Notes: a model not told the origin generated them from the sequence alone. A stretch of DNA of 46,974 nucleotides from a virus (IMGVR_UViG_3300009528_000187:1-46974), one strand, 5' to 3'. Positions 8,919-46,339 are shown, counted from the stretch's first letter. Translations and numbers: made by a program.

Positions 8919-9543
8919 ACTGGCGAACTGCGATATATGCTATGCCTCCCTCAATGATTTCTGGTTCATTGAAGAACGCATACACAAAGTTCAAATAGTC
9001 CAATCCAGTGCTCCGGATAACCTCGTGCCCACCGAGAAGGATATGGAGTTCCTTGCCCGCCCTGACGATAACCTCTTTATCAGTGAAGAGGTATCCTTCC
9101 ACCATAGCTTGGATACAGTGCTTGAGAACTACAACCAAAAACTCCTGTTCGTTGTTTCGGACAATAGGGGCATATATCCTCGGCAGGTATGGTTTGCACC
9201 CACCCCGCAACAACCCCTCCACTTTCTAGCACTATCGTCTTTCTTCACGCTTACTATGGTTTGCTTGATTGGAGGCGCTTCTATGATTGTTCTCTTCGGC
9301 TGTGATGGGGGCAAGATAGAAAAACAGCCCTTATACTGGGGTGGCAAAGACAACCCCTCTTGGGGCAGGCTTTTGTATGATACGGCTATTCTAAACCAAC
9401 TTGCACAACCCATATTAACACAAGTGTATGCCCTGTATGGTATTGAGCCCAAGAGAATTATCAACTGCTCCCTACAAAGTCATCACACCAGCTTTGAAAA
9501 ACTATCTTATGATGAAACCTTTAAGGTATTAAATGAAAACTAA
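8779..9543 (+). CDS. DUF115/Maf-like protein (possible nonulosonic acid transferase)
   Basis: About 254 residues. GRPVAILLPGPSIGELE at about 26-42 matches the opening of the DUF115 (MAF_flag10/MptE-like) domain, and ASMIVLFGCDGG matches its later G-x-D motif. In flagellated bacteria Maf proteins of this family attach pseudaminic or legionaminic acid to flagellin; other members are pterin pyrophosphokinases. With NeuB and SpsF nearby, a transferase role is attractive but not proven. ATG 8779 overlaps the transketolase gene by 140 nt; an ATG at 8737 is also possible. Confidence 0.65.
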   Translation: MVKLNFSEYLPNTEKRIDYLKNIIGGRPVAILLPGPSIGELEQRINELANCDICYASLNDFWFIEERIHKVQIVQSSAPDNLVPTEKDMEFLARPDDNLFISEEVSFHHSLDTVLENYNQKLLFVVSDNRGIYPRQVWFAPTPQQPLHFLALSSFFTLTMVCLIGGASMIVLFGCDGGKIEKQPLYWGGKDNPSWGRLLYDTAILNQLAQPILTQVYALYGIEPKRIINCSLQSHHTSFEKLSYDETFKVLNEN

Positions 9544-10288
9544 TCTTATATGGGGAAACTCTGGCGATACTGAAACCTCCCTGTGGCATACTGTGGTTGA
9601 CTTACTGCAAAGCCACGAGAGCCAGAATGGATTATTAAAGATAAAACCAGCCAATAAAAACCAGACTGGCTTACTTGACCCAGAATTCAAACAGGAATTG
9701 GCTTGGGCTAATATGGCACTTGAGTGCGACTATTTGAGTTGGAGGCAGGGCAAGGCACTGAGGAAGTTGATGAGACCAAAGGCGTTTATCACACCCGCAG
9801 ATATAAGGGCATTAATTGCCCTTGCTGTGACAGTGGGGAGAGCGGGAATGTTTATGGCAGATATAGGCACTTGGATGGGTGCGTCAGCACTAGCGTTGGC
9901 AACCGTAGCGTTCTTTAATGATGGCAAGGTTTTCTGCGTGGATACGCACAACTGGTGGGGTGATGCCATCTTCACTATGTTTAGACACATAATGAGGCGA
10001 AGGGAACTGTGGGCTAATGTCATATCCCCAGTGATGATGAGCAGTGAGTTGGCTATTGATATATTTAAGGATGAGAGTTTGGACTTAGCCTTCATTGATG
10101 CTGCCCATTCTTACGAGTATGTCTCTATAGACATACCTGGCTGGCTACCCAAAGTTAGAAAGGGTGGGATACTCTGCGGACACGATGCTGATGAAGAACA
10201 CCAAGATGTATTGAAAGTGCTTCACGAGACTTTTGGCGATGACTACCTGGTAATACCTGATACCTCAATATGGTATAAGAAACTATGA
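9533..10288 (+). CDS. Class I SAM-dependent methyltransferase
   Basis: 251 residues. Motif I is ADIGTWMGASALALA (near 108-122), the acidic post-I site is KVFCVDTHNW, and motif IV is LDLAFIDAAHSYEYV, followed by GGILCGHDAD. This is the Methyltransf_24 type often found with glycosyltransferases. The first about 90 residues are distinct from the following paralogue. The ATG overlaps the upstream gene by 11 nt. It likely O- or N-methylates a sugar; the target is unknown. Confidence 0.8.
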   Translation: MKTNLIWGNSGDTETSLWHTVVDLLQSHESQNGLLKIKPANKNQTGLLDPEFKQELAWANMALECDYLSWRQGKALRKLMRPKAFITPADIRALIALAVTVGRAGMFMADIGTWMGASALALATVAFFNDGKVFCVDTHNWWGDAIFTMFRHIMRRRELWANVISPVMMSSELAIDIFKDESLDLAFIDAAHSYEYVSIDIPGWLPKVRKGGILCGHDADEEHQDVLKVLHETFGDDYLVIPDTSIWYKKL

Positions 10289-10953
10289 AAACTGAAAAGA
10301 TAGAAGATGAGAGAGCGTGGAATGAAACTTGGGGGCGTGGCATTGATGCTAATGATGCCAAGGCACTGATTGATTTGACAGACAAAGTTGCCCGCCAGAA
10401 TGTGCTGGTTGCCGAGATTGGTAGCTGGAAGGGATTATCCACCCTCTTTCTTGGCTTACAGGTGCGACCATATAGAGGTAAGGTTTTTGTCATTGACCAC
10501 TGGCGTGGAGACCCTGGCGACCAGGTTATAATAGCCAAGCAACGAGATGTTTTCGGGATATTCAGAAGAAATATGATTATGATGAGTCTTTGGCACACTG
10601 AGGTATTCCCCCTGCTAATGGATTCCCTTACAGCCAGCCAGATATTTGCCGACCACATTCTGGATTTAGTCTTCATTGATGCCGACCACCGCTATGATGC
10701 TGTGAAAGCTGACATAGATAATTGGTTGCCTAAAGTTAAGGTGGGGGGAATTATAAGCGGACACGATTGCCACTGTAAATATACCAACTGTTCCCAGCGA
10801 CAGAAAGAAGAGATTGATGCCAATCTAAACACTAGGAATATTAATCTGGAAATAATAGACTGCCATCCTGGTGTAAGCAGGGCATTGTATGATGCCTTCA
10901 ATGACGAATACTCAATGGCGGATGCCTCTACTGTATGGTATAAGGAACTATGA
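10285..10953 (+). CDS. Class I SAM-dependent methyltransferase, paralogue
   Basis: 222 residues, clearly related to the preceding protein: AEIGSWKGLSTLFLG, KVFVIDHWRGDPGDQ, LDLVFIDADHRYDAV, GGIISGHDCH and a shared C-terminal WYKxL. Tandem duplication with divergence is the likely origin. Joined by an ATGA overlap. The pair may methylate different positions of one glycan. Confidence 0.8.
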   Translation: MKTEKIEDERAWNETWGRGIDANDAKALIDLTDKVARQNVLVAEIGSWKGLSTLFLGLQVRPYRGKVFVIDHWRGDPGDQVIIAKQRDVFGIFRRNMIMMSLWHTEVFPLLMDSLTASQIFADHILDLVFIDADHRYDAVKADIDNWLPKVKVGGIISGHDCHCKYTNCSQRQKEEIDANLNTRNINLEIIDCHPGVSRALYDAFNDEYSMADASTVWYKEL

Positions 10954-12047
10954 AAAAAACAGCCCTTGTTACCACTACTATTAGAATACCTGAAATGTTA
11001 AAGGGGTTCTGGGATAATGCGAACCTTTATCAGCACGACAATATTGAGGCGATAGTTATCGGGGATAAGAAGACGCCTTGCAAAGCCTCGGAGTTCTGTG
11101 CCTCATTACCGCATACCAGATTCCTTACCATAGAAGCACAGGAGAAGGCATTAAAGGATTACCCCGAACTATTGAAAACCATCCCGTATAATTGTGGTGA
11201 CAGGAAGTTACTGGGTATGCTCATCGCTTATCTGGGGGGCTTTGATACTATTATCGCAATAGATGATGATAACTTTGTTACCACGCAAGACTACTTTAGA
11301 TTCCACAAGATGGTGGGCGAGTGGGAAATACTGCCCGTGGTTGAGAACGACAGCGGTTGGTTTAACGCAATCCATTTTGCCATAGAGGAGGGGGAATACA
11401 TACCTTATCATCGGGGATTTCCCCACTCAAAAAGGAAGACCAGTAATTACACCGTGAGGCAGGCTGGAGCAAAAGTGGTTGTTAATGAGGGCTTCTGGCA
11501 GGGCGACCCAGACATTGACGCGACAACACGGCTTTGCTTTACTTTATTTGAAGCCCCCCTCAATGACATTAAGCCGTGCCTCAAGTTTGTCCCACACTTT
11601 GGGCTTCAGCCAGGAACCTGGTGCACCTTCAATAATCAGAATACCGCCTTTGCCCGTGAGGTTATACCAGCCTACTTCACGCCGCCCTGCGCCAAGCGCT
11701 ACTCCGACCTCTGGCCTGCTATGGTTGTCTGCTGTATTGCTGGACATCTGAACCATATAATATCCTACGGCTATCCCATAGTTGAACACAGGCGTAATGA
11801 ACACTCGCTCTGGAAGGATGTGCAGGATGAGAAGGTGGGGGCTAGGGCTACCGAACCTTTGATTGAAATGTTGCGCTCTGCTAAATTCACTGGTGATAAT
11901 TACCACACTTGCCTTGGTGAATTACTAGAACATTTAGAGACACAATCGGATATTATAGGGCAACTTCCCGATGACCAGGGGGATATGTTATTTGGTTTTA
12001 TCAGTGGGATGCAAGTATGGCATCGGGTATTTTCGGGTATGATATAA
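10950..12047 (+). CDS. Reversibly-glycosylated-polypeptide-like glycosyltransferase
   Basis: 365 residues. IIAIDDDNFV is the DDDN-type metal/nucleotide-sugar site, and GFPHSKR, GFWQGDPDIDATTRL, NNQNTAFAREV and RYSDLWPAMV follow in the order seen in the RGP family (UDP-arabinopyranose mutase/STELLO-like). Members interconvert or transfer nucleotide sugars. Last gene of the contiguous sugar block; its stop codon lies inside the extended -10 promoter at 12040. Family by motif order is good; activity is uncertain. Confidence 0.78.
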   Translation: MKKTALVTTTIRIPEMLKGFWDNANLYQHDNIEAIVIGDKKTPCKASEFCASLPHTRFLTIEAQEKALKDYPELLKTIPYNCGDRKLLGMLIAYLGGFDTIIAIDDDNFVTTQDYFRFHKMVGEWEILPVVENDSGWFNAIHFAIEEGEYIPYHRGFPHSKRKTSNYTVRQAGAKVVVNEGFWQGDPDIDATTRLCFTLFEAPLNDIKPCLKFVPHFGLQPGTWCTFNNQNTAFAREVIPAYFTPPCAKRYSDLWPAMVVCCIAGHLNHIISYGYPIVEHRRNEHSLWKDVQDEKVGARATEPLIEMLRSAKFTGDNYHTCLGELLEHLETQSDIIGQLPDDQGDMLFGFISGMQVWHRVFSGMI

Positions 12048-12050
12048 TTA
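12040..12050 (+). promoter_or_regulatory. Extended -10 promoter, tail operon
   Basis: TGATATAATTA: TG-N-TATAAT, overlapping the stop codon of the glycosyltransferase. No -35 box is apparent. The TGNTATAATTRA form recurs at 32658, 33206 and 41957. Predicted transcript start is near 12055, giving a leader of about 105 nt. Confidence 0.6.
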
Positions 12051-12086
12051 AAGGGAAGAGGACTTGCGGGTGAGTGCGTTGTTAGT

Positions 12087-12136
12087 CCCCTCCAAGGCGC
12101 AAGGTCGAGGAGGGGCGACTTGCTTCTAGGCGCCTT
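12087..12136 (+). promoter_or_regulatory. Structured 5' leader, candidate pseudoknot
   Basis: CCCCTCC (12087-12093) can pair with GGAGGGG (12109-12115). AAGGCGC (12094-12100) can pair with GCGCCTT (12130-12136), with an inner CAAGGTCG/CGACTTG stem (one bulge) that presents AGGAGGGG as its loop. The CCCCTCC strand would then bind that loop, an H-type pseudoknot, or the pairings may alternate. It lies between the 12040 promoter and the AGGAGG site of the next gene, so translational control is plausible. Confidence 0.5.
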
Positions 12137-12159
12137 AAAATAAAAAACAGGAGGATAGA

Positions 12160-12603
12160 ATGGCACTTCAAATAAAAGCTGCTAAGAAACTAGACCTGCG
12201 GGGTAGGGGACAATTTCGAGGCTTTGTCTTTTCGCACAAAACCGACAACTACGATGTTATCGGTAGGGATGATTCGTTCAAGATTTTCACTATGACCCAT
12301 ATCAATGCAGACCACACACTCTACTTTAATCTGGATACTGCTGTTAAGAGCAAGAATGCGTGTTTCACCTTCATCAACAAGACTGAGGGCGCACTAATCA
12401 TCTCTGCAATAGACAGAGGGCAAGGAGATTCTATCATAGCCAAGGGTGATGTTGCTGCTAATATGATTAACTATGCCTATATTGCAGCCAACCTTGCCTC
12501 TACCTGCCAGATTTGGTGTGATGGTGTCAACTACTACCACTACGATTTGGGGCCTAACTACAATACTGGCAATGTTGCACTTGAAACATATCTTGTTACT
12601 TAG
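12160..12603 (+). CDS. Putative virion protein (147 aa)
   Basis: No family recognised. It is beta-rich and soluble in appearance, with many aromatic and Asn residues, as in capsid decoration or tail proteins. It is the first gene after its own promoter and structured leader, with a good ribosome site (CAGGAGG). Position at the head of the tail block suggests an abundant structural protein. Confidence 0.7.
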   Translation: MALQIKAAKKLDLRGRGQFRGFVFSHKTDNYDVIGRDDSFKIFTMTHINADHTLYFNLDTAVKSKNACFTFINKTEGALIISAIDRGQGDSIIAKGDVAANMINYAYIAANLASTCQIWCDGVNYYHYDLGPNYNTGNVALETYLVT

Positions 12604-12614
12604 GAGAGCGAGTT

Positions 12615-12821
12615 TTGCCTTTATATGAGTTCAAATGCGAGGGATGCGGGCAGACCTTAGAACAGCTTGCCCGCTCCCCCTCGGACAAGTGGAGTGAGTG
12701 CCCTGAGTGTGGAGGGAAACTAGGACAGTTATTCTCCCCCTTCGCCATCTTTATGGGTGCTGCCCCTTTGTCTTTCCATCACAAATTCGCTTATCCACAT
12801 ACTGATTCTAAGAAACCATAA
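12615..12821 (+). CDS. FmdB-like zinc-ribbon protein
   Basis: 68 residues starting at TTG 12615 (AGGAG upstream). MPLYEFKCEGCGQ, then WSECPECGGKLGQLFS, gives two CxxC pairs in the pattern of the FmdB-type putative regulatory zinc ribbon. It sits among tail genes. Likely binds zinc; function unknown. Confidence 0.75.
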   Translation: MPLYEFKCEGCGQTLEQLARSPSDKWSECPECGGKLGQLFSPFAIFMGAAPLSFHHKFAYPHTDSKKP

Positions 12822-12833
12822 AAGGAGGTTTAT

Positions 12834-13379
12834 ATGTCTGGGAGAGTGATTGTTTCCAAAGTTCTTGAGTTCTCAGAACATCCGTGGGGCGCAAACTTAC
12901 TAACCACTGACGGCGTACAGTGGAGTGCTTCTGTCAATATAACCAACTCGCAAGATGAAGCCCTATATACGGCGGTGAATACTGCTGCTTTCAATATGGT
13001 GCGCTGGGGCGACCCAGGGGGTGCAGGCGTGCTAAAGGGGGCAGAGGTAAATATGACATTCGCTATAAACTGCGACAATGCTACCGCCATAGCCACCTAT
13101 ATCGTAGAGGGCAGAAACCTTGCCAACGCTACTGGCGATGAAACCGATTGGGTTAATCTGGTAGCTGCAACTGCTATAGCTGCTCCAATGAGTATTGACT
13201 TTGCCACCAACACACTAACCTATGCTGGCAGGCTACCGATACAGACCAACTTGAACAAAGTCCCCTTTGAAATCAGGTTGAAGTATAAGGTGAACTGCAA
13301 TTCAGAGTTAGAAGTTGCCCAAATGAGGATGAGAAACTCAGGTGTCTGCAACTATATGTATCAGATTGCTGCGGGATAA
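12834..13379 (+). CDS. Putative virion structural protein (181 aa)
   Basis: AAGGAGG precedes the ATG. Beta-rich sequence with NITNSQDEAL, WGDPGGAG and repeated NAT/ANAT stretches, reminiscent of carbohydrate-binding or tail-module jelly rolls. No family assigned. It overlaps the downstream cupin by one base. Confidence 0.65.
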   Translation: MSGRVIVSKVLEFSEHPWGANLLTTDGVQWSASVNITNSQDEALYTAVNTAAFNMVRWGDPGGAGVLKGAEVNMTFAINCDNATAIATYIVEGRNLANATGDETDWVNLVAATAIAAPMSIDFATNTLTYAGRLPIQTNLNKVPFEIRLKYKVNCNSELEVAQMRMRNSGVCNYMYQIAAG

Positions 13380-13672
13380 TGAGTGAGGTCGTTCTTCGCA
13401 AGAAAGACGAAAGATACGAGATACACGACTTGCACTTGGGTGATTTGACCCTGTCGGTAACTTACTTGAACGCAGGACAGAACACGATAGGGCATCTTCA
13501 CTCACAGGAGGAGGGATACTATATTGCCAGTGGGTTGGGTAGGATGATGGTAAACGACAGGATAACGCAAGTAAGTGGGGGTCAATTTATGGTCGTGCCC
13601 CCAAACACTTATCATCGTATCTTTAATGACGGCTTGTTGTCGTTGGTGTTCATATGTGCGTGGGAAAAATAA
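13379..13672 (+). CDS. Small cupin protein
   Basis: 97 residues, one cupin: IGHLHSQEEGYYIASGLG (metal ligands H, H and E), then VPPNTYHRI (second-motif H). This is the mannose-6-phosphate isomerase/cupin_2 type that often works on sugars. It is fused by overlap to the nucleotidyltransferase gene, so the two may act in the same pathway. It is embedded among virion genes although its job is metabolic. Confidence 0.75.
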   Translation: MSEVVLRKKDERYEIHDLHLGDLTLSVTYLNAGQNTIGHLHSQEEGYYIASGLGRMMVNDRITQVSGGQFMVVPPNTYHRIFNDGLLSLVFICAWEK

Positions 13673-14070
13673 TAGCGGTGGGAGGGGGATTTGACCCCTT
13701 GCATATCGGGCACATAAGGCACTTACAAGAAGCCAGAAAGCTAGGAACTTGGTTGGTGGTATTGGTGAGTAATGATGAGGATATGATACGCAAGAAGGGT
13801 TACTGCTTTATGCCACTAGAGGAGAGGATGGAGATATTAAGAGAACTAAGGTGTGTGGATGAAGTCTGGGAAACTTGGGACAAGGATGGCACACAAGCTG
13901 AAACCTTGCGGGCAATCTGCCCCGATGTATATGCCAAGGGTGGTGATAGGACACCAGACAATATGCCTGTTAATGAAATAGAAGCCTGTGCTGAAATAGG
14001 CTGTGAGATAGTTTATGGAGTAGGAGAAAAAATACAGTCCAGTTCTGAATTAGTGAGGAAAATTAAATGA
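13654..14070 (+). CDS. HxGH-type nucleotidyltransferase (RfaE/TagD-like)
   Basis: 138 residues. GGGFDPLHIGHIRHL holds the HxGH site of the cytidylyltransferase-like superfamily; KGGDRTPDN and QSSSELV match the adenylyltransferase half of HldE (RfaE) and glycerol-3-phosphate cytidylyltransferases. It would activate a sugar or polyol phosphate with CTP or ATP. With the kinase at 3463 it could complete a heptose-like activation route. The gene overlaps both neighbours. Confidence 0.8.
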   Translation: MCVGKIIAVGGGFDPLHIGHIRHLQEARKLGTWLVVLVSNDEDMIRKKGYCFMPLEERMEILRELRCVDEVWETWDKDGTQAETLRAICPDVYAKGGDRTPDNMPVNEIEACAEIGCEIVYGVGEKIQSSSELVRKIK

Positions 14071-14948
14071 CAACTACTGCATTAGTATTAAGCGAACACC
14101 TTAGCAAGGCTACTGGAGATTGGCTTCAAGTAGCAGTTACCGCCAATATCGGGGCTAACACACTTATTATATCTTCTAGTCTCAATGAACACGATGGCGG
14201 CAGCGATACTTACTTTGAAGGCTGGTGGGTTTATGTAGAAGATTACCTAAATGAAACCATAAGCAGGAAGGTTGAGCATTACTACACTGCCAATTACACG
14301 CTAGATGTTTACGGGGCAAACCTTACCGAAGACGCTCTCAATGTTTCCACTATCAGGCTCAGTCGGTATAGCTGGGCGAAAAAGCTGGAAGCAACCAATG
14401 ATGCTCTAAAGGAAATCTACCCCATCCTGCATAAGAGGGTGGTAGACCAGACCACTATATCCAACAGTGACCTCTATACTTATCCGATGCCCAGTTCTCT
14501 GACAGACGGTGCTGTTCATTCTGTTCTGGTGAACGCCTATACCAATCCCGCTGACGCTGCTGCTGAGGATACTTGGCGGGAGGTATGGAATTGGGACATC
14601 GTTAATGAGGGCAATTCTATCCGCCTGCCCGTTTTATTTGATGACGGGCATAAGATAAAACTGACTGGGATTGCACCGCTGGAAGCTGTAACCACTGCTG
14701 CCAGCGTGGTAAATATAGCGGGTAAGGAACTGGAACTACTCACGGCTTATGCCAAGTATAAGCTCTATTCCCAGATGGCAGACCCCGCTGCCAGTGAAGA
14801 TGTAGATAGGTATGAAAGGGCAGCATCCAAGGCTTACGGCGAATATGCGATGCTTGTTCCCAAGTTAAGAATGATTAGCCCCAGCAGACCATTAAGAATA
14901 AAGGGCATAGAGCAGGGGTGGACACCCCTACTTTATACAACCAGGTAA
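14067..14948 (+). CDS. Putative head-tail connector/adaptor protein
   Basis: 293 residues. A beta-rich N-terminal third (FEGWWVYVED, SRKVEHYYTANYT) precedes a helical part (KKLEATNDALKEIYPILHKR) and another helical segment near the end (ELELLTAYAKYKLYSQM). This layout resembles phage adaptor proteins that sit under the portal. The call rests on position and overall shape, not on a named motif. Confidence 0.5.
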   Translation: MTTTALVLSEHLSKATGDWLQVAVTANIGANTLIISSSLNEHDGGSDTYFEGWWVYVEDYLNETISRKVEHYYTANYTLDVYGANLTEDALNVSTIRLSRYSWAKKLEATNDALKEIYPILHKRVVDQTTISNSDLYTYPMPSSLTDGAVHSVLVNAYTNPADAAAEDTWREVWNWDIVNEGNSIRLPVLFDDGHKIKLTGIAPLEAVTTAASVVNIAGKELELLTAYAKYKLYSQMADPAASEDVDRYERAASKAYGEYAMLVPKLRMISPSRPLRIKGIEQGWTPLLYTTR

Positions 14949-14949
14949 T

Positions 14950-15255
14950 ATGAAGGCTAAGACTTCGGGTAGCATAGTTGTTTCTTGGGGGGCTGAACAC
15001 GGAAGTAAGGGCAAGTTAATATCAAGGCAGGCAAGCGTTGAAGCTCCAAGCATAAACTGCGTGAGGCTTTCTTGTTTGTGGAAGTTTGCTGTTAAATCTT
15101 TAGCCTATGTTCTGGCAATGCTCTACCATAAATACCGAGTTGAATATGCTGAGAAGAATAGAAATAAAGAAATTCCCGTTAAATATAGAACGGGTGAAGA
15201 AGCTCCTGAGAGCGTGTTGGGGCTAATATTCCAAATTATTAAACTAAGGAGGTAA
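14950..15255 (+). CDS. Hypothetical protein (101 aa)
   Basis: Basic protein with one hydrophobic stretch (FAVKSLAYVLAMLYHKYR) that could span or touch a membrane. Lies between putative connector and tail genes. No family recognised. AGGTAAT precedes the ATG. Confidence 0.5.
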   Translation: MKAKTSGSIVVSWGAEHGSKGKLISRQASVEAPSINCVRLSCLWKFAVKSLAYVLAMLYHKYRVEYAEKNRNKEIPVKYRTGEEAPESVLGLIFQIIKLRR

Positions 15256-15259
15256 GAAA

Positions 15260-15679
15260 ATGGCTCAATCGGAGAAACCAACATATCAGGGTTATATTGA
15301 AGTAGCGAAGAGGATGAGTGTTGCTGGCGATGGCACTGGCAGTTGCGTCAACAGTGTAGTTGGCTATATTGATACCTGTAGCGCTGCTGCTGAAGCCTCA
15401 ACCTATGCTTCCCCCGCGGCAACAATGTGTAATGCGGCGGGCTTTGCTCTAGTTGATGCTGATATTGTCAACACCATAACCACTGCTAACACCGATGACA
15501 CAACGGGGGTTTTCCATGTGTTCACAGCCACCGCCGCTAACACAATCACGGGCTTTGGTATTTGCAACGATGACGATGATGTGCTATTTGCCGAGTGTTG
15601 CTTCGCTGCGGGTGTACCCTGTGAAACCGATGACACCCTGACAGTATCAATGGCGATGCAATTCAAGCTTGGGAGCTAG
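15260..15679 (+). CDS. Putative virion protein, Cys/Ala-rich (139 aa)
   Basis: AAGGAGG precedes the ATG. Sequence is rich in Ala, Thr, Asp and Cys (eight or more cysteines), beta-prone, with a FHVFTATAANTITGFGICNDD stretch. Cysteine content is high for a cytosolic protein and may mean disulphides in the virion. No family recognised. Confidence 0.6.
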   Translation: MAQSEKPTYQGYIEVAKRMSVAGDGTGSCVNSVVGYIDTCSAAAEASTYASPAATMCNAAGFALVDADIVNTITTANTDDTTGVFHVFTATAANTITGFGICNDDDDVLFAECCFAAGVPCETDDTLTVSMAMQFKLGS

Positions 15680-15681
15680 GC

Positions 15682-17253
15682 TTGATAGAACAAATAGCCA
15701 AAACTACATTCCAGAAGGCTATGCCCTCTGGCGATAGGGTTTTGATTGGCAATATAGACTCTAAAAACTTCAAGCCACATCTTAAACTCAATCGCTGGGG
15801 TGGTGAGTGCTTTATTAAGGTAGGCTTGCCTGTAACAGAGAGGTCACTACCAATAATTGAGGGCGATAAGATTACTTGGGAAGGTAGAAACAGGCATATC
15901 ATAATGTATCCCCTTGCCCCTACTAAGCAGATGGAGTTGGGTGGGTATGAATATGAGGTAGTGCTTGAGAAGAAGCCTAAGACTAACAAGATTATTCTGG
16001 ATATTCAAAGTCAGGGATTGCGGTTTGACATCCAGCCTCCCTTGACCCAACAGGAAATAGAGGACGGCTACTTTAGGCCAGATAATGTAGTCGGTGCTTA
16101 TGTGGTCTCCCACATTACGAAAGGTGGGTTAGTCACCTCGAGAGACGCAGCCAGGGGCATAACGACTGGGCACGGCTTTGTGATCTATCGCCCAAAGGTT
16201 ATAGATGCTAAGGGAAATTGGGCTTGGGCAGAACAGTATATTAGTCAAGGGAAGCAGATAATAACAACCCCTTGGGAGTTTCTTGAGAACGCTTCTTACC
16301 CAATACGACACATTGCTGGGGATACCTTTGGTTATAGCACAAAGGGTAGCAGTGCTACAGCTATGCGTGGAAGAATACGGCTCACTCGTGGAGCACCTGC
16401 TGGAGGGAACGGCACAGGGGATAGCGTTGGGGCATATATGACTGTTTCAGCTACCTATTTAGGCAGACCCGTTAAGGGTAATATCTACGATGATGGCGAT
16501 GATGAGGATGATGTTACTACAAACCTACACGCTGATGGAGCAACTGAGGAAAAAACAGTGCCCGATGGTGCTTGGGATGACTTGGAAACATTCAACTTTT
16601 CCTCGCCCCCATCATTTACGAACGGGGTATATTATAGGGTAACTGTTTGGGGGGATGATGATGACCGCAACGGCGACCCAGGCGGTTCTCTAAATATCCG
16701 CTATAATTCTGTTGGGGGCGAGCATTATTACTATCAGATTCTAGCCTACAATGGATGGCCTGACCCTAATAGCCTCAGCCACTCCACTGGTAACATACAA
16801 TCTATCTACTGCACCTATACACCAGGAGTGGGAGGAGAAGAAAAGGGGCCGATTGTTTCCAGTGTAATCGTGGGGGTCTTACCTAGTGCCACAAGACTAT
16901 TAGCCTGCGAAAGGGATAGCTCGGTTATAATCGGGGACTTGGTTAGTGCTACTAGAGCACTCACCTCTATCAGAACAGCTTCGGTGATAAATGGGGTTGT
17001 AGCCAGTGCTTCTAGGTTTGTGGCTTCTACTCGAACTGCCAATGTGATTACAGGGATTGTAGCCACAACCACAAGAACCCTAGCTTCCATAAGAACCGCC
17101 TCTGTTATAATAGGGGTAGGGGCTATTGCATCACAGGCTAGACACTTTATCGGACACCTTACAGGATTTATAATAGATAGAACTTACAGCCTCGGTAAGG
17201 GAGCAGATTATGATATTGTGCCCAGAGATATATACTTTAAGGACAATGAATAA
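15682..17253 (+). CDS. Tail fibre-like protein with C-terminal 20-residue repeats
   Basis: 523 residues, TTG start with GGGAG upstream. The middle region (near 225-380) is a beta-sandwich-like segment (GNIYDDGDDEDDV, VYYRVTVWGDDDD). The C-terminal part carries about five copies of a 20-residue repeat with core SVIIGxxxSASRxLA, ending in a cap QARHFIGHLTGF. The neighbouring protein at 17869 has more copies of the same repeat and the same cap. A trimeric fibre or receptor-binding role is likely; no known family was recognised. Confidence 0.6.
   Translation: MIEQIAKTTFQKAMPSGDRVLIGNIDSKNFKPHLKLNRWGGECFIKVGLPVTERSLPIIEGDKITWEGRNRHIIMYPLAPTKQMELGGYEYEVVLEKKPKTNKIILDIQSQGLRFDIQPPLTQQEIEDGYFRPDNVVGAYVVSHITKGGLVTSRDAARGITTGHGFVIYRPKVIDAKGNWAWAEQYISQGKQIITTPWEFLENASYPIRHIAGDTFGYSTKGSSATAMRGRIRLTRGAPAGGNGTGDSVGAYMTVSATYLGRPVKGNIYDDGDDEDDVTTNLHADGATEEKTVPDGAWDDLETFNFSSPPSFTNGVYYRVTVWGDDDDRNGDPGGSLNIRYNSVGGEHYYYQILAYNGWPDPNSLSHSTGNIQSIYCTYTPGVGGEEKGPIVSSVIVGVLPSATRLLACERDSSVIIGDLVSATRALTSIRTASVINGVVASASRFVASTRTANVITGIVATTTRTLASIRTASVIIGVGAIASQARHFIGHLTGFIIDRTYSLGKGADYDIVPRDIYFKDNE
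16846..17175 (+). repeat. Degenerate 60-bp tandem repeats (fibre protein 1)
   Basis: About five units of 20 codons encoding x-R-x-[AS]-S-V-I-I-G-x-x-x-S-A-[ST]-R-x-L-A-x. The repeat is clear at protein level and diverged at DNA level, so it has been kept by selection rather than by recent duplication. Confidence 0.8.
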
Positions 17254-17844: not shown

Positions 17845-17868
17845 AGAAGGAATGGGGATTGAATAGTT

Positions 17869-20895: not shown

Positions 20896-20911
20896 AGGAG
20901 GATAACCGAAG

Positions 20912-21058: not shown

Positions 21059-21176
21059 GGACTGGCGCAACAATGAGTTCTGGCATATGGCGGTAGAAGT
21101 CAGAGCCACCACAATTATAATCACTATCATATTCGCCATTGAGATTGCGATTGCCATTAAGGTTCTTTGGGGTTAG
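21021..21176 (+). CDS. Single-span membrane miniprotein (51 aa), holin candidate
   Basis: Charged, amphipathic N-terminus (MKALNKKTPQWFKDWRNN) followed by one strong hydrophobic span (TTIIITIIFAIEIAIAI). Last gene before the 21.25 kb terminator, where some phages carry lysis genes. A holin role is possible only by position and shape. Confidence 0.5.
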   Translation: MKALNKKTPQWFKDWRNNEFWHMAVEVRATTIIITIIFAIEIAIAIKVLWG

Positions 21177-37194: not shown

Positions 37195-37448
37195 GGGAAA
37201 ACCCATTTGATAGGATAGTTGATAAGACAATGGCTCGTGTGGAGCGGGTTTCCAACAAGATTGGCAGGGACTTCAAGAATATGAAGCCCTTTGATAAAGA
37301 ACCCGTATCTGACGAGGATATGCTGGCTTCTTACGATATGCTCACACCTGAAGATATGGGTTCTTTAATTCAATATCACGGGGAGGAAGCCCTAAACGAA
37401 TTTATCGGAGAAATGGAGATGAAAAAGAGGGGAAGTTATTATGGCTGA
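37191..37448 (+). CDS. Hypothetical structural-region protein (85 aa)
   Basis: ATGA overlap with the portal gene. Helical and acidic (EPVSDEDMLASYDMLTPED). No family recognised; likely a virion assembly factor by position. Confidence 0.5.
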   Translation: MRENPFDRIVDKTMARVERVSNKIGRDFKNMKPFDKEPVSDEDMLASYDMLTPEDMGSLIQYHGEEALNEFIGEMEMKKRGSYYG

Positions 37449-38640
37449 TGGTGAATCCCGACAACTCTTAGAAGAGTATTTAACCAGATTACAGCGTTGG
37501 CTTGAACTGAAAGTCGCAAGGGGCGAAATTACTCAGCAAACCTATCAGCAAATGATGATGGATGCTGGGCGTGCTGTTAATGAACCAGGTAGGTGGGGTT
37601 GGGGTTATCGTTGGTATGACAAGAATATTGACCAACTACTTGAGCAGGGAGACATTTCACTCCCCTACTTTGATGAGATAATGGTCAAGCGTGGGGATTA
37701 CTGGCTGTGGGAAGAGGAGATGCGTTCACAGCAAACATCACTTCGGCAAGCAGGGATAAAAACCCAGCAAGCCCAAGCCAAGGCTCAAACCACTAAGGAA
37801 GGTTATATTCCCTACCTTGATGCCTATTTAAGAAAGAAGGGTGGAATAAGTCCTGCGGAACGACAGGAAATACTCGCCGATGCTTCTCAACAAATTGAAA
37901 TGGGTGTTCCCCCACAAAGAAATCGCTATTATACCGATGTGAGAAGCTGGTTAAAAGAGCAAGGTCAGGAATTTGGAGCTTTGGTGGCTATAACACACCA
38001 GCAAAACTTATCGGCTCAAAGAAAGTGGTTTGCAGAGATGGAGACAAAGAAACTCCAAGAGCGGGCAGATGTTTATGGACGAGGGCAGATAGCCGAATGG
38101 GGTGGTGCTGGTGGTGGCTTAATACAGAAGAGACAGGCTGAATTAGGGGCTTTCAAACAATGGCAGCCGAGGGCATTAGGTCAATTAGAAGAACCAGTAG
38201 ATTGGATTGAAAGGTGGAGGGTTGAACATATGATGCCACCCTTCTTGCCAGGGCAGGCTGGTGCGTATCTTACCCCTGAAGCTCAGAAGTATTGGGGGGC
38301 AACTGGGCCAGAAGCTCCAAGTTGGTTAGCACAATTAGTTCCTGGATTAGAGGCAGGGCAAAGATTACCGAGAGAACCTAGATACCCATTACCCAGTCTC
38401 TCTAAAGAAAGCGACCTCCAATATGGGCAACTCACCGCCCCTACACCAAGCTGGCGGTGGTTTGAAGAAACACCCTGGTCAACTAGAGAGAAATACAGGG
38501 GTTATGCCCAGTGGGCTGGCAGGTCTTGGCAGGACATAATGGAAGAGGCTACCAAGGGAAGAAGGTCTTATTTGGAAACGCTACCTCAAATGCCGAGAGG
38601 TGCAGGTGCGACAAGGTGGCGACCTGCAGGGCAGAGGTAA
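37441..38640 (+). CDS. Putative virion-associated protein (399 aa)
   Basis: Helical and Gln/Trp-rich; repeats of the form RGEITQQTYQQMMMDAG and KGGISPAERQEILADAS suggest two related modules. No membrane span and no known domain. Lies between portal and the 1028-residue protein, where many short-tailed phages place internal proteins. Confidence 0.5.
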   Translation: MADGESRQLLEEYLTRLQRWLELKVARGEITQQTYQQMMMDAGRAVNEPGRWGWGYRWYDKNIDQLLEQGDISLPYFDEIMVKRGDYWLWEEEMRSQQTSLRQAGIKTQQAQAKAQTTKEGYIPYLDAYLRKKGGISPAERQEILADASQQIEMGVPPQRNRYYTDVRSWLKEQGQEFGALVAITHQQNLSAQRKWFAEMETKKLQERADVYGRGQIAEWGGAGGGLIQKRQAELGAFKQWQPRALGQLEEPVDWIERWRVEHMMPPFLPGQAGAYLTPEAQKYWGATGPEAPSWLAQLVPGLEAGQRLPREPRYPLPSLSKESDLQYGQLTAPTPSWRWFEETPWSTREKYRGYAQWAGRSWQDIMEEATKGRRSYLETLPQMPRGAGATRWRPAGQR

Positions 38641-38641
38641 A

Positions 38642-41600: not shown

Positions 41601-41728
41601 GTGATTTTTATGATGTTTGGACGGGTAAAAAGCCGTTAGTATCATTGTTCTTCTATAAGGGTGGTTTGCCTTATCCTCAAGAGGAAAAGGGGAAGAAATT
41701 CAGACCGCCTACCCTACGACCTAAATAA
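38642..41728 (+). CDS. Very large virion-internal candidate (1028 aa)
   Basis: ATG 38642 is chosen (GAGG upstream). It has a hydrophobic segment (LSLIGLVGTLGVGGYQVV) near residue 125, a helix-rich middle with many EK/ER pairs, and a C-terminal hydrophobic part (YLKYLILGGGILTALGY, MQMAMGLYGYVTAD). The end resembles the C-terminus of large polyvalent phage proteins that I associate with ejected internal proteins. No catalytic motif seen. The longest gene of the window. Confidence 0.5.
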   Translation: MTYWVSKDWKTLIPYREEEEEKSWWEQLFPPGDVGVSARMTATTPYPIQPLGEEEQLREKARQAGESHYWSEAEKAWKLVEAPEEVPFSRMPFAQQIDPLGEVAPFKQIGEAMTSPEAETTKDILSLIGLVGTLGVGGYQVVRASWLAFLRASLTRAFQSRAAERGVQISRAEAELLARQVVHGEFRAIQKAAPGVTIERSTRFRKTWLTKEALRQMFRLTKDGYKMPDPTKAQIAARDASDVADDIIGALIPRGTQTGAMAMGGKPSPKPFSELTQLPVGITKVPEVLTPLEGGVAYLPPTLDVATNAQKVYAHKIAERKHFTEKARRKLAKLYTGKRSMLDMTEEEAQTFIEVLEALPKARYEIRAGKKVFVAPTIPRTKAVVPENFFNLKFKEPTPIRFFTSQEYYTQVLGIKPLVRPLELAKQRFDLEHQAFANAVEMKIESLNKIAGTSTAEKIASKVKNVPTKAERAMRDLLNEFEDPPAFLSAEEREIFTWFRNLNKTMLSGQNEVRALLGIDPIPYRRAYVRHIAEGMALEMLQGIHPFPEGLKYWSERLVGKKVFNPMEYQRQVADDLEQYFTRDLAFATKSMLWTGLKEIHLSRPLLAFTEQLTAFTKDLPAYENLSVEEIARVRKMSVMPASTRKWLENYVNQVIKGQPTGLDMEINRIFMGEGMRGVVNKMLVPFGRSVGRLPLTKLGQILGRTIMAAVLGPLRVKLIIRNKHQLMQNLALYTLRANIKGVLMPSTVQMEEFFAQSTFLKGYTGLEELPAGLMNKIEKLWHGAYRWSAVSNAHTAMKVAYWDTLDLITNSKYKTLGWADPQRTYKEPKEFLYPSEKQKMLYEMEWGAGATQYSYIAMGMPEIFRHKVLVPLTRLQSWWMNYFFRFHREAMTRALTGKTGYGARLPWSRRLAYLKYLILGGGILTALGYKRSFLLGVVPDTMSPAMQMAMGLYGYVTADSDYERKKSLKNIYYSWKAFVPGSLTFGDFYDVWTGKKPLVSLFFYKGGLPYPQEEKGKKFRPPTLRPK

Positions 41729-41730
41729 TT

Positions 41731-41913
41731 TTATTTCTTGAGGCTTAATCGCTCATCAATCCATCCAACTATACAAGCGAAAATCACAAAAAGGGCAAGG
41801 GCAAAAACGCTCTGGCAGAGCCAAGCAAAATTATTTGGATGAGGAACAAATAGGGCTAAAAGCAATACGGTGGTGGCTACACTCAACCAGATTAAATATG
41901 GTTTCTTCCTCAT
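41731..41913 (-). CDS. Leaderless two-span membrane protein (60 aa)
   Basis: Minus strand, alone among rightward genes. LIWLSVATTVLLLALFVP and LCQSVFALALFVIFACIV are strong spans, with a basic N-terminus. TATAAT (41920-41925) lies 6 nt before the ATG, so the transcript is probably leaderless. A holin-like or exclusion protein is possible. Confidence 0.55.
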   Translation of the reverse strand: MRKKPYLIWLSVATTVLLLALFVPHPNNFAWLCQSVFALALFVIFACIVGWIDERLSLKK

Positions 41914-41919
41914 ATAACT

Positions 41920-41925
41920 ATTATA
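41920..41925 (-). promoter_or_regulatory. -10 box of a leaderless gene
   Basis: TATAAT on the minus strand, 6 nt before ATG 41913. No convincing -35. Confidence 0.45.
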
Positions 41926-41956
41926 CAACGGGTTGTCAAGTCGCTAAAAGGGCGTG

Positions 41957-41968
41957 TGCTATAATTGA
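41957..41968 (+). promoter_or_regulatory. Extended -10 promoter, scaffold/capsid
   Basis: TGCTATAATTGA, same form as at 12040, 32658 and 33206. It stands 52 nt before the scaffold gene. A small hairpin TGATA/TATCA follows at about 41966-41980. Confidence 0.6.
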
Positions 41969-42019
41969 TATAGGGTATCATCACTCGGAAGATACACTAT
42001 AGGAGGTTAACAAAAGAAT

Positions 42020-42778
42020 ATGCCACAGGAAGAGAAGAAGACTGAAGAGACTTCTACTCCAGAGGAACAGCTTGCATCTCTACAAACTGAACTCACAGAG
42101 ACTAAAGAGAAGCTGGCGGAAACCGAGAAGGGTTTATCCACAGCACATCGGACACTCACTGCGAAAGATAAAGAGGGCAAGCAAAGGGCAAGTCTCGAAT
42201 CCCAGATAGAAAGCATTGGGGACAGAGTAAAGATACTTGCTTCCATTATTGCGCAAGGTGGTGGGCAGACGGAAACTGCATTTGAGGAAACCGTTGCTGC
42301 AAACAGACCAGACCTTCTCAAGACCTATGAGGACTTGGAAAGAAAACACGAAGAAAAGCGTAAGCAAACCGACTTTGAGGGTCGGGTTAATGAATATGAG
42401 GGTAAAGTATCTGGCTTGGGACTTACACGCAAGGATGACGAATACTGGGATGTTTTTGACTTGGTAAGCAAGGGGCGATTTGATAGGGCTGATATGAAGC
42501 TCGAAAGGATTGCTGAAACCAAGGATAAGAAACCCGCAGAATCATCTGAGGCGAGTGAGACTGAACTGGAAAAACGCATAGAAGAGGGGGTGCGCAAGAG
42601 GATGGAAGATGAGGGCTTGCTCAAGACTGAAACTGGTGGGCCTTCGGGGTCTGCTGGTGGCAAGACATATACCAAAAAGCAAGTTGGGGATATGTCTCAA
42701 AAAGAATATCGAGATGCCTTCCCCAGTGATGACGACTTCTGGACAGCCGTTGCTGAGGGAAGGGTTAAAGAAGAATAA
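42020..42778 (+). CDS. Scaffold/assembly protein
   Basis: 252 residues, highly charged and helical, with long coiled-coil parts (LQTELTETKEKLAETEKG, EETVAANRPDLLKTYEDLERK) and an acidic middle. It lies directly before the major capsid gene, which with its composition marks it as scaffold. AGGAGG lies about 15 nt before the ATG. Confidence 0.75.
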   Translation: MPQEEKKTEETSTPEEQLASLQTELTETKEKLAETEKGLSTAHRTLTAKDKEGKQRASLESQIESIGDRVKILASIIAQGGGQTETAFEETVAANRPDLLKTYEDLERKHEEKRKQTDFEGRVNEYEGKVSGLGLTRKDDEYWDVFDLVSKGRFDRADMKLERIAETKDKKPAESSEASETELEKRIEEGVRKRMEDEGLLKTETGGPSGSAGGKTYTKKQVGDMSQKEYRDAFPSDDDFWTAVAEGRVKEE

Positions 42779-42842
42779 AGGTCGAGTGGAGCGGTGAGCG
42801 TGTAAGCTCTAGTTAAACTAAATATAAGGTGATAAAGAAACA

Positions 42843-43694
42843 ATGGCAATAAGTGCGAAACTTATGACCAATGTCAATGTCGCAAACTGGATTCCGACAA
42901 TTTGGTCAAAACAGGTGCTTGCAGCCGTTGAACATTCGTTAGTTACTGGTGCGCTGGTTGACCGCTCTTATGAGCAGTATGCTAGGGCAGGCGGGAGTAG
43001 AATTGTTGTGCCTAATCTGGCAAACCTTACTGCTGCTGCTGTTAATACTGACCAGGATTTAACCCTTTATGGAGCAACCCAGGGTGCTACCAACATTGAT
43101 GTAAACTACTTCTTCGATGTTGGCGTGGGTCTATCTGACATAGAGGACTTACAGATTAACCCTGACTATATGGAGAAGGTGAAGGGCAAAGTAGCCTATT
43201 CATTGGCACAGGTGATTGACTGGAACACTAACGCATTGTTCGCTGGCTTTGATACTGCTGTAGGCACTACTGGTTCGGCTCTTACTGAGGACGACCTGAT
43301 TGAAGCTTACGAGAACCTGAACGAGGCAGATGCGCCCTTTACTGACAGGGCGTGGGTCTTTGACCCAGAATCCATTACTGACCTACTGAAACAGGACTAC
43401 TTCATCAGAATGGATTATGTCCCTGGTAGCGTGGTTTCACAGGGTTTCCAAGGCAGGCAAATCTTTGGTTCGCCAGTATACATTTCCACGAACCTGACTG
43501 TTTACGGCTCAACCAATGAGCATATGTCGGGATATTTCCAGAGAGAGGCGATTGCGTTGGTGATGCAGATGCAACCCAAGTTTGAGGTTGCCCGTCTACC
43601 GCTACAGCATTCTGATGCTATCATCGGTTTGTGTGCGTATGGCTTGATGGAAATGCGGGGCACCTTCGGAGTCCTGATTAACTGTAGAAGCTAG
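42843..43694 (+). CDS. Major capsid protein
   Basis: 283 residues. IPTIWSKQVLAAVEHSLVTGALVD, split here by length rule, and GGSRIVVPNL, DVGVGLSDIEDLQ, and AWVFDPESITDLLKQDYF match the P22/N4-gp56-like group of HK97-fold coat proteins. It follows the scaffold gene and would form the shell. The leader 42779-42842 includes a GAGC/GCTC hairpin. Confidence 0.8.
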   Translation: MAISAKLMTNVNVANWIPTIWSKQVLAAVEHSLVTGALVDRSYEQYARAGGSRIVVPNLANLTAAAVNTDQDLTLYGATQGATNIDVNYFFDVGVGLSDIEDLQINPDYMEKVKGKVAYSLAQVIDWNTNALFAGFDTAVGTTGSALTEDDLIEAYENLNEADAPFTDRAWVFDPESITDLLKQDYFIRMDYVPGSVVSQGFQGRQIFGSPVYISTNLTVYGSTNEHMSGYFQREAIALVMQMQPKFEVARLPLQHSDAIIGLCAYGLMEMRGTFGVLINCRS

Positions 43695-43700
43695 ATTATC

Positions 43701-43726
43701 GGGGGAGGGGGGACTCCCCCTCCCCC
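43701..43726 (+). terminator. GC hairpin after the capsid gene
   Basis: GGGGGAGGGG (43701-43710), loop GGACTC, CCCCTCCCCC (43717-43726): ten G-C-rich pairs without a T run. It probably lowers, rather than stops, transcription into the sugar genes, or protects the capsid mRNA end. Confidence 0.55.
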
Positions 43727-43741
43727 TTCACTTGAAAGGAA

Positions 43742-45229
43742 GTGAGTGTGGGTAAACCTAAATTTGATTTAGCTCTCATTATTGTCTCTCACCGTGTAAT
43801 TTCCGCAGCTACGGTTCACAGCTTAGAGAATCTACGCAATTCCACCAAGATAAGCTACACTCTCGCCCTCTTTATCGGTGATGCACTTATCAGCAGAGGG
43901 CGCAGTCAAGCCTGCTCCAGATTCCTCACGGAAATAGATGCCCCCTATATGATTTTCATTGATGACGACATTACTTTTACCCCTGAAGATATAGGCAAAA
44001 TCTATCATCATCTCACTCAAGGCTACGATATTATCGGTGGCATTTACCCCGTCAGGGGTGCCTCCCAGTTATCCTCTTACGGCTTTGGCGGGAATCTGAT
44101 GATTGATGGGCAAATCCGAGAGATAGAGTATCTGGCTACTGGTTTTATGGGCATCTCAAGGCGCATTTTAGAGAAGATGCGTGATGAACTTAAAATGCCG
44201 TGGGTTAATCCCAGTGATTGGGCACAGTGCTGGCCGTTCTTTGAGGCTAAGAGATGTCTTACTGACAGGGGATTAACCAGAACAACCAAGGCTTTCACAA
44301 AGAAATACGGGGTTTCCCTTCTGGATTTTGGCCAACTGATGAAGCATCTTGGCGTTCTTTCCAGACCAAAGGGCGACCCTATTTATATTTCTGAGGATTG
44401 GGACTTCTGCGAAAAGGCTCGCCAGATAGGGTGCAAGATATATGCAGATACCTCCGTGCAATTAGGTCATATGAGAGAACAGGTTTTCACCGCAGTGGAT
44501 GTGCGCCAGATACAAACCAAGGAAACAATGGAAAAGGAATTTTATGGTGCTATTAACCATCAATCCGACCTTATGCAAAAGGTTGATGAGGACTTGAGTG
44601 AATTCCTGCATAGACCGATTGGTAAAATCCGAGAGCAACTCCCTACTGCTACATGGGAGTTGAGGAAGCAATGGCTCGTATATAAGGGCACCACGGAGGA
44701 TTATTACAAAGACAACCTTTTGTATCTATTAGACCTGGCAGCCTTTAATCTCCGCCCCCTGTATTATCAGAATAGAATCGGGCAGTTGGTAAACATCTCA
44801 AAACTTAAAGTTCTGGACATTGGCTGTGGTATTGGCACGACGGTATTTATGATGGCAGAGCAGGGCAACGAAGTAGTGGGTTGGGATATTAATCAAAAGT
44901 GTATTGAATTTTGCAATTACAAGAAAAAGAAGTATAATTTAGGTGGGAAGTTTACCACAGAGAAACCCGACTACAGCCAGTTTGATTTGATAGTTGCGGT
45001 GGATGTGTTGGAGCATATTGAGGACTTGCAGGGTTTCTTGGTAGATTTGGGCAAGAATATGAAATACGGTGCCAAGTTTTACCACTCAGATTACTTCGGG
45101 AAAGATGATAAACCCGATGACAATGTTTGGCCGATGCACTTTACAGAAAACAAAGAGCACTTGCGTAAGTGGCTTGAAAATGCTAAACTAATTTCATGGG
45201 ATGATTCTTGGGCAATTAAATCAAAGTGA
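43742..45229 (+). CDS. Glycosyltransferase-methyltransferase fusion
   Basis: 495 residues. The N-terminal GT-A half has SRGRSQACSRFL and IFIDDDITFTPEDIG (a DDD metal site). The C-terminal half is a class I methyltransferase: LDIGCGIGTTVFMMAEQG (motif I, near 358), WDINQKCIEF and FDLIVAVDVLEHIEDL. The start is GTG 43742 or 43748. The fusion suggests transfer and methylation of the same sugar. First gene after the capsid hairpin. Confidence 0.82.
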   Translation: MSVGKPKFDLALIIVSHRVISAATVHSLENLRNSTKISYTLALFIGDALISRGRSQACSRFLTEIDAPYMIFIDDDITFTPEDIGKIYHHLTQGYDIIGGIYPVRGASQLSSYGFGGNLMIDGQIREIEYLATGFMGISRRILEKMRDELKMPWVNPSDWAQCWPFFEAKRCLTDRGLTRTTKAFTKKYGVSLLDFGQLMKHLGVLSRPKGDPIYISEDWDFCEKARQIGCKIYADTSVQLGHMREQVFTAVDVRQIQTKETMEKEFYGAINHQSDLMQKVDEDLSEFLHRPIGKIREQLPTATWELRKQWLVYKGTTEDYYKDNLLYLLDLAAFNLRPLYYQNRIGQLVNISKLKVLDIGCGIGTTVFMMAEQGNEVVGWDINQKCIEFCNYKKKKYNLGGKFTTEKPDYSQFDLIVAVDVLEHIEDLQGFLVDLGKNMKYGAKFYHSDYFGKDDKPDDNVWPMHFTENKEHLRKWLENAKLISWDDSWAIKSK

Positions 45230-45236
45230 GGGAGAA

Positions 45237-45578
45237 ATGGATACCAGCGAAACTTATATCAAGATGTGTGATTGTGGAGAAATACAAAATATATGGAATC
45301 CTGAAGGTTTGGATTTTACACATCGCAGACTAGGCAAGCAGTATAAACACGGAACTATGCTTTGGCTCCCACGCCAAGACCAGTTGCAGGAAATGGTAGG
45401 AATAACACGGACTAGACTCATAACTGAGTTTGGCACATTTGCAGTTTGCCACGAGGTCAGGGGTGTTCTAGCACTTAACTATTATCGCTCAATGGAGCAA
45501 CTCTGGCTTGCCTTTGTGATGAAAGAGAAACACGATAAAGTGTGGGATGGTGAATCGTGGATGAAAAAGAGCAAGTAG
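45237..45578 (+). CDS. Hypothetical protein (113 aa)
   Basis: GAGGGAG lies before ATG 45237. KMCDCGEIQNIW gives a short Cys motif; the rest (RRLGKQYKHGTMLWLPRQDQ, ALNYYRSMEQLW) is unrecognised. It overlaps the following glycosyltransferase by 22 nt. Confidence 0.55.
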   Translation: MDTSETYIKMCDCGEIQNIWNPEGLDFTHRRLGKQYKHGTMLWLPRQDQLQEMVGITRTRLITEFGTFAVCHEVRGVLALNYYRSMEQLWLAFVMKEKHDKVWDGESWMKKSK

Positions 45579-46339
45579 ATATTATTCTTGGCACACATAA
45601 CCACATAGAGTTAACGGCACCTTGCGTTGTAGCACTCTATGAATATACCGAGATTCCCTTTCGGTTGACAGTAGTGGATGATTCCACTGATGGCGTAACC
45701 CCCATATACTTTGAGAAACTGCAAGAAAAGAAAGGGAATATCAAATATATCAGACCCAGGAAGAAAATCACCAGCACCAATATGGTGATTAATATTGGTC
45801 TAAAAAACACCGATAGCGAGTTTGTGGTTTTCCTCGGCAACAGCACCATTGTTGAACCCAAATGGCTTAACGCTGCTTGGGGCGTTATTCATCAGCATCA
45901 AGACATAGGCATAATAGGCTTTAAGGAAGTATATCCCCAGGGACACATTGAGCACGCAGGAATACACTTCGAGCCAGGTATGCCACATCACACTAATTTT
46001 GGCGTGGGTGAACCTGCTCACAGGTGGACACATATAGCCGATGTGCCACTGGTGGGTGGTTGCCTCGTCTTATTCCGCAGATTAGCTGTCCCAGTAGGGG
46101 GCTTTGATGAAGATTACTATATTGGCTTTAGGGGCTATGACGATTTAGATAACTGCTTTCAGATGCACGAGAACGGGTGGCGCGTCGTATATTGCGGTCT
46201 AGGAACTGCGATACACAGGGCACAGGCGACACAAAGGGCTGATACTGAATTAGAGCAATACGCCAGAGAATACGATGAGAACCGCTTTCGCTTTTTGGCG
46301 AGGTGGGGAGTGCCACCCTTGGGAAAGAAAGATGAATGA
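45557..46339 (+). CDS. Family 2 glycosyltransferase
   Basis: 260 residues. VDIILGTHNHIELTAPCV with LTVVDDSTDGV is the GT2 start; FLGNSTIVEPKWL is the DxD-like position (here GNS), and VPLVGGCLVLFRR with GFDEDYYIGFRGYDDLD matches the acceptor-side motif of rhamnosyltransferase-like GT2 enzymes. The DxD is replaced by NS, so the metal site may differ. Overlaps the NeuB gene start. Confidence 0.82.
   Translation: MDEKEQVDIILGTHNHIELTAPCVVALYEYTEIPFRLTVVDDSTDGVTPIYFEKLQEKKGNIKYIRPRKKITSTNMVINIGLKNTDSEFVVFLGNSTIVEPKWLNAAWGVIHQHQDIGIIGFKEVYPQGHIEHAGIHFEPGMPHHTNFGVGEPAHRWTHIADVPLVGGCLVLFRRLAVPVGGFDEDYYIGFRGYDDLDNCFQMHENGWRVVYCGLGTAIHRAQATQRADTELEQYAREYDENRFRFLARWGVPPLGKKDE

Follow-up and report, generated by a model that had tools for sequence, protein, structure and literature searches.

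A virus gene cassette around a short NeuB-family synthase may encode the synthesis, activation and transfer of an acidic sugar

Overview

The virus record IMGVR_UViG_3300009528_000187, analysed here at its full length of 46,974 bp (the window), carries a gene cassette that, with a probability we put at about 0.62, encodes a route to a cytidine monophosphate (CMP)-activated acidic sugar and the attachment of this sugar to the surface of the virion or the host. The cassette is real and widespread, but it only partly agrees with a first-pass annotation, which had proposed a three-gene phage route to a sialic-acid-like sugar with neuB for synthesis, an SpsF-type gene at 7315 for activation and a DUF115/Maf-like gene at 8779 for transfer. 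All three are open frames with family matches or a fold match. The interval given for them, 9543..46332, is the complementary arc of the genome, and the genes themselves fall outside it (46332-46974, 1-257 and 7315-9543). Rather than this triad, the best-supported unit is NeuB together with a class IV aminotransferase (AT4), a radical SAM/SPASM protein (rSAM1) and SpsF. These genes and that at 8779 are:

46332..46974 joined to 124..257 (second copy of the end repeat removed), plus strand: neuB, a NeuB without SAF domain, 258-residue frame with its ATG at 46332
318..1121, plus strand: rSAM1, directly after neuB (SPASM E 3.6e-10; orthologue in the related virus L056 65% identical)
5952..6905, plus strand: AT4 (PF01063 E 6.7e-44; PDB 5mqz E 6.4e-45; 57% identical in the Omnitrophota contig L116)
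7315..8040, plus strand: spsF-type cytidylyltransferase, 241 residues (CTP_transf_3, PF02348, E 2.8e-24)
8779..9543, plus strand: MptE-like/DUF115-fold protein, putative glycosyltransferase, 254 residues (AlphaFold model, Foldseek, relatives in the virus L061 and the bacterial stretches L173 and L177)

An intact NeuB-family synthase across the contig ends

The window is a circular bacterial-virus genome, its two ends sharing an identical 123 bp (1-123 = 46852-46974) and both a large terminase subunit and a major head protein being encoded in it. When the junction is repaired, the neuB that had been proposed to span the contig ends from 46332 to 257 encodes an intact enzyme of 258 residues, which matches Pfam NeuB (PF03102, E 4e-58) over 235 of the 241 profile positions, that is, as a full-length domain; since a false join would not be expected to yield a full-length NeuB enzyme, the end junction appears genuine. 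The closest PDB match is 6ncs (E 2.7e-40), a protein of 290 residues annotated as a sialic acid synthetase.

The active-site motif claimed for NeuB is likewise borne out, in that the metal residues and most phosphoenolpyruvate (PEP) residues, the lack of which had been named as refuting the proposal, are present. Compared with NeuB of Neisseria meningitidis, an N-acetylneuraminate synthase, the window enzyme has the same catalytic barrel residues and, judging from homology, presumably the same PEP chemistry: Glu25, Lys53, Lys129, Ser154, Tyr186, Ser213, His215, Glu234 and His236 of the Neisseria protein are retained, and the window residues E9, K37, K114, S197, H199, E218, H220 and D231 are invariant across 13 aligned sequences, in which the active-site columns are overall invariant or nearly so. 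D231 takes the position of Neisseria Asp247, just past the pairwise-aligned stretch, and the His220/Asp231 motif is encoded in the C-terminal part of the gene (window 1..257), while the active-site Asn184 of Neisseria is replaced by Pro169. In three other loci (L005 at about 10001-10765, L067 at 410-775, and L074) an HNH-like frame follows the start of neuB, and one neuB match contains a stop, which suggests an intron or homing endonuclease inside these phage neuB genes.

Association with cytidylyltransferases and aminotransferases

The 7315 protein is, as had been claimed, an SpsF-like cytidylyltransferase with its active-site motif in place. In addition to the PF02348 match, its nearest solved relative is the cytidylyltransferase 6oew (E 3.9e-21), and the QARxGSxRLPxK loop by which the SpsF type is recognised lies at residues 9-20. 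The spsF product of Bacillus subtilis is a putative cytidylyltransferase without which legionaminic acid does not get to the surface of the spore, and the sps legionaminic acid pathway likewise pairs a NeuB-family synthase, SpsE, with an SpsF-type enzyme (PMC7439481). The window set differs from this pathway by being phage-borne, by its SAF-less NeuB and by having a class IV aminotransferase, whereas equivalents of SpsC, SpsD, SpsG and SpsM were not recognised in the window.

In viral_contigs, queries with NeuB, SpsF or the 8779 protein as single sequences gave nothing usable and alignment queries were needed; an alignment search of IMG/VR found relatives of the short NeuB encoded in at least 551 virus-contig stretches. 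We compared 83 virus loci, namely the window and 82 others. A CTP_transf_3 protein is found at most eight genes from NeuB in 74 of the 83, and this co-occurrence, the L116 operon described below and the window cassette itself give substance to the link between synthase and cytidylyltransferase that had previously been inferred. The cytidylyltransferase belongs to a NeuA cluster in 67 loci and to an SpsF cluster in seven, never to both; the chance that all seven SpsF loci would lack NeuA if the two were independent is about 3e-6, a figure that can serve only as a guide since the loci are related and the clusters are single-linkage. In bacterial loci this exclusivity fails, NeuA being present in five of eight SpsF loci as well, and motif sorting placed some QARxxSxRxPxK proteins within the NeuA cluster, so that the exclusivity holds for the clusters and does not mark a sharp biochemical divide.

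Aminotransferases of class III, class IV or the DegT family occur near NeuB in 44 of the 83 virus loci, at most two genes from the cytidylyltransferase in 33, and in the window AT4 is the last recognised gene upstream of spsF. The four partners come together most compactly in L116, where an overlapping operon NeuB-AT4-rSAM1-SpsF occupies 3.4 kb and the proteins are 57, 57, 50 and 35% identical to those of the window, respectively; relatives of rSAM1 are also found in the bacterial NeuB operon of L177. Omnitrophota are not claimed as the host, a search for the head protein in this phylum having given one weak match of 20% identity. By family, the NeuB and SpsF steps of the three-gene route stand, but the route was incomplete, since it omits the aminotransferase, the radical SAM partners and a probable heptose-like route.

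Other short-NeuB cassettes, among them those of the cyanophage AG-345-L05 (L002), LR756508 (L003) and L056, likewise combine a SAF-less NeuB, a cytidylyltransferase, an aminotransferase and transferases in varying sets, but most of them use NeuA-cluster enzymes where the window uses SpsF. In L056, NeuA and a class III aminotransferase sit between neuB and rSAM1, and neither is found there in the window. L003 carries GT29-like sialyltransferases, unlike the window: in this 484-kb phage four GT29-like proteins flank NeuB (11253-16074 of LR756508.1), and the one scanned matches the Pfam sialyltransferase family Glyco_transf_29 (E 2.2e-30). In a NeuB tree from a short search, the window groups with L005 and L056 (support 99) and the SpsF carriers fall in at least four places. 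Virus and bacterium labels change 14 times on this tree, at least six of the changes being forced by well-supported branches, so that neuB has moved repeatedly between viruses and bacteria.

The 8779 protein

The frame at 8779 has a longer possible start at ATG 8737, yet its relatives align from 8779. Its protein matches nothing in Pfam or NCBIfam nor, as a single sequence, in the PDB; it does not reach the gathering score of PF01973, and one of four relatives matches this family at E 0.0037. An AlphaFold model from two sequences was set aside (predicted local distance difference test, pLDDT, 47.7), whereas one from four sequences reached a pLDDT of 72.4 and a predicted template modelling score (pTM) of 0.79. 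Foldseek identified the archaeal pterin diphosphokinase 8sd5 as the nearest solved structure of this latter model (E 2.3e-4, probability 1.00, TM-score 0.42-0.48) and, among viral models, 19 at E <= 0.001, several of which are named MptE-like/DUF115, with a weak viral sialyltransferase at rank 30. By its predicted structure the protein has the MptE-like/DUF115 fold (PF01973).

Maf flagellin transferases are assigned to the MptE-like/DUF115 (PF01973) superfamily. No Maf entry is however found among the sequence matches or the 50 Foldseek matches listed, and of the earlier description as DUF115/Maf-like it is the first half that the fold bears out; a Maf identity is not claimed here.

Relatives are rare in the samples searched, with one virus (L061), one of 237 genomes of a phylum sample and two strong matches in a class sample of 197, one of which is the genome already found in the phylum sample; none was found in 301 genomes of another phylum. 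A cyanophage protein downstream of NeuB in L002 was considered as a further relative and dropped (alignment E 5.8). In L061 the relative stands immediately before NeuB, and that of L177 comes after rSAM1 in an operon of the order NeuB-NeuA-SDR-VOC-methyltransferase-rSAM1. The gene neighbourhoods of L061, L177 and L173 favour a glycan role, and from the NeuB context of the first two the protein may be a putative transferase. The proposed transfer step draws on the neighbourhoods of L061 and L177, the nearest solved structure being that of a pterin enzyme.

Remaining genes of the cassette

The cassette runs from 43742 round the ends to 14070 in a single direction throughout, many of its genes overlapping by a few bases, and its guanine plus cytosine (GC) content is even with the remainder of the window. 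The head gene is followed by the cassette, in the same orientation, in both the window and L056, the head proteins of which are 63% identical. The further genes are:

42843..43694, plus strand: major head protein, immediately upstream of the cassette (phrog_267 E 1.4e-27)
43742..45229, plus strand: fusion of a family 2 glycosyltransferase and a methyltransferase (PF13489 E 1.4e-13, PF00535 E 1.2e-5; L056 orthologue 58% identical)
45557..46339, plus strand: glycosyltransferase family 2 (PF00535 E 3.7e-8; orthologue in L056)
1239..2003, plus strand: transketolase N-terminal, thiamine diphosphate (ThDP) subunit (PF00456 E 7.8e-26; GDGE...N motif visible)
1963..2352, plus strand: small cupin, sugar-isomerase-like (Cupin_2 E 2.4e-7; relatives in 42 of the 83 virus NeuB loci)
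2330..3466, plus strand: second radical SAM protein (PF04055 E 9.2e-18)
3463..4431, plus strand: GHMP sugar kinase resembling the heptose-7-phosphate kinase HddA (NF049969 E 1.7e-34, under the cut-off; PDB 3k85/4n3o)
4412..5713, plus strand: B12-binding radical SAM protein (PF04055 E 1.2e-17; PF02310 below cut-off; L173 relative E 4e-105)
8037..8918, plus strand: transketolase C-terminal subunit (PF02779 E 1.8e-33)
9533..10288, plus strand: methyltransferase (Methyltransf_24, E 3.2e-16)
10285..10953, plus strand: methyltransferase (Methyltransf_24, E 6.6e-19)
10950..12047, plus strand: RGP-like (reversibly glycosylated polypeptide) protein (PF03214 E 3.4e-6)
13654..14070, plus strand: HIGH-motif nucleotidyltransferase (CTP_transf_like, PF01467 E 3.7e-16), candidate partner of the GHMP kinase

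The transketolase, the cupin, the GHMP kinase and the HIGH nucleotidyltransferase probably belong to a second, heptose-type route rather than to the NeuB pathway. To judge by their families, the split transketolase and the cupin could provide and isomerise a ketose. As in the GDP-heptose pathway, in which HddA acts with GmhA, the window kinase is close to solved heptose kinases, but at 119.8 bits it does not reach the HddA equivalog cut-off of 600, no GmhA was recognised in the cassette, and the split transketolase and cupin are found instead. In the bacterial glycan cluster of L173 (1-4516) the 8779 relative is preceded by genes for an HMGL-like protein, an E1-type ThDP enzyme of two subunits and a fusion of cytidylyltransferase and cupin, possibly a branched-sugar pathway. 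Two small frames of the window (about 1130-1290 and 7085-7318) give the sequence impression of stand-alone S4-type RNA-binding domains.

Proposed pathway and alternatives

In the proposed pathway NeuB would, as its family strongly indicates, condense PEP with an aldose to a 3-deoxy-ulosonic, nonulosonate-like acid, and SpsF would, on equally strong family grounds, couple the product to CMP. AT4 probably adds an amino group to the sugar, which is a reasonable inference from gene context. Transfer may, rather tentatively, be carried out by one or more of the DUF115-like, family 2 glycosyltransferase and RGP-like proteins, and the acceptor would by context be the surface of the virion or the infected cell. 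Several small proteins encoded between the cassette and the long downstream genes (12160-14948) may be virion proteins and are candidate sugar acceptors.

A number of findings weigh against this pathway. The 258-residue NeuB stops after the NeuB domain, so that the C-terminal SAF (antifreeze-like) domain and Arg314 of the Neisseria enzyme are absent; with 195.1 bits it is well under the NCBIfam cut-off of 399.65 for the N-acetylneuraminate synthase equivalog, and also under that for the Pse synthase. Furthermore, about 7 kb separates NeuB and SpsF in the window, no N-acetylhexosamine (HexNAc) epimerase or diamino-sugar precursor enzyme was recognised among the cassette genes scanned, which leaves the host or an unrecognised step as the source of the aldose, and in L173, in a stretch with no NeuB match, the 8779 relative comes after GmhA, a B12 radical SAM protein and a GHMP kinase.

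The first of these points bears on the nature of the product. In Neisseria NeuB the SAF domain contributes Arg314, which positions the N-acetyl group of N-acetylmannosamine (ManNAc), and the R314A mutant is inactive (PMC6795526). The product is for this reason better named a nonulosonate-like acid than sialic acid, which is not claimed, and of the earlier wording 'sialic-acid-like' the assignment to a NeuB-family ulosonate synthase stands while the rest has to be weakened. There is indeed a substantial chance, if somewhat below even, that the 3-deoxy-ulosonic acid made by NeuB is shorter or non-acetylated, resembling Kdo, Kdn or a heptulosonate, and is not a nonulosonate of the sialic, legionaminic or pseudaminic type, since the related Kdo8P synthase is likewise without a SAF domain (PMC6795526) and the nearest NCBIfam models of SpsF are CMP-Kdo synthetases, with scores below their cut-offs. 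However, an acetamido group could be bound by other NeuB residues, the closest structure, 6ncs, bears the annotation sialic acid synthetase, and NeuA-type partners predominate in other viruses. From the sequence, the likely product is a nonulosonate-type 3-deoxy-ulosonic acid, which need not be an acetamido sugar.

The gene order of L173 likewise makes it conceivable that the 8779 protein serves a heptose-like route, together with the GHMP kinase and the B12 radical SAM protein, or another reaction, and does not transfer the NeuB product. We hold this to be possible but appreciably less probable than not: the L173 relative stands directly after a GHMP kinase 52% identical to that of the window, and the pterin diphosphokinase fold would suit another reaction, but the positions next to NeuB in L061 and within the NeuB-NeuA operon of L177 speak for transfer, as does a protein cluster, its tested member matching PF01973, that about 14 virus loci have upstream of NeuB.

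As to the site of attachment, the cassette might alter the host cell surface, by receptor masking or superinfection exclusion, and not the virion. The bacterial versions in L116 and L177, which lie in surface-polysaccharide clusters with ABC exporters, make this nearly an even prospect, falling a little short of one; no exporter was however recognised among the window genes scanned, and a place immediately behind the major head gene speaks for late expression alongside the virion proteins. That the cassette is passenger cargo or in decay, its genes having no joint function, is very improbable. Cassettes do differ greatly among viruses, but here the frames and the NeuB catalytic residues are intact, the genes overlap in one direction with even GC content, and many virus loci across the NeuB tree have the same partners. 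The pathway to a CMP-activated acidic sugar is thus the reading we prefer.

Implications

Searches of an open library, which covers few subscription papers and no preprints, gave no report of a phage or other virus that synthesises nonulosonates or sialic acid, and the novelty is therefore provisional; PMC6292376 was not used in this respect, since the terms were met only in a reference title. In its boldest form, which we consider unlikely as a whole, the proposal would be that phages of a widespread class themselves produce an undescribed amino-ulosonic acid and coat their virions with it, by means of a SAF-less NeuB, interchangeable NeuA or SpsF, and a class III, class IV or DegT aminotransferase, the module being mobile between viruses and uncultured bacteria. 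The swap of NeuA and SpsF and the three aminotransferase families do point to a pathway with a sugar not yet identified, and since the module is found in hundreds of virus contigs and many bacterial phyla and its enzymes are short, the biochemistry is directly testable. Glycosyltransferases are already known in phages, but to synthesise and activate their own acidic sugar would go further: if true, a phage could adjust the charge and antigenicity of its surface, conceal receptors or mimic host glycans, and a self-made acidic-sugar coating may be a common yet little-studied phage trait.

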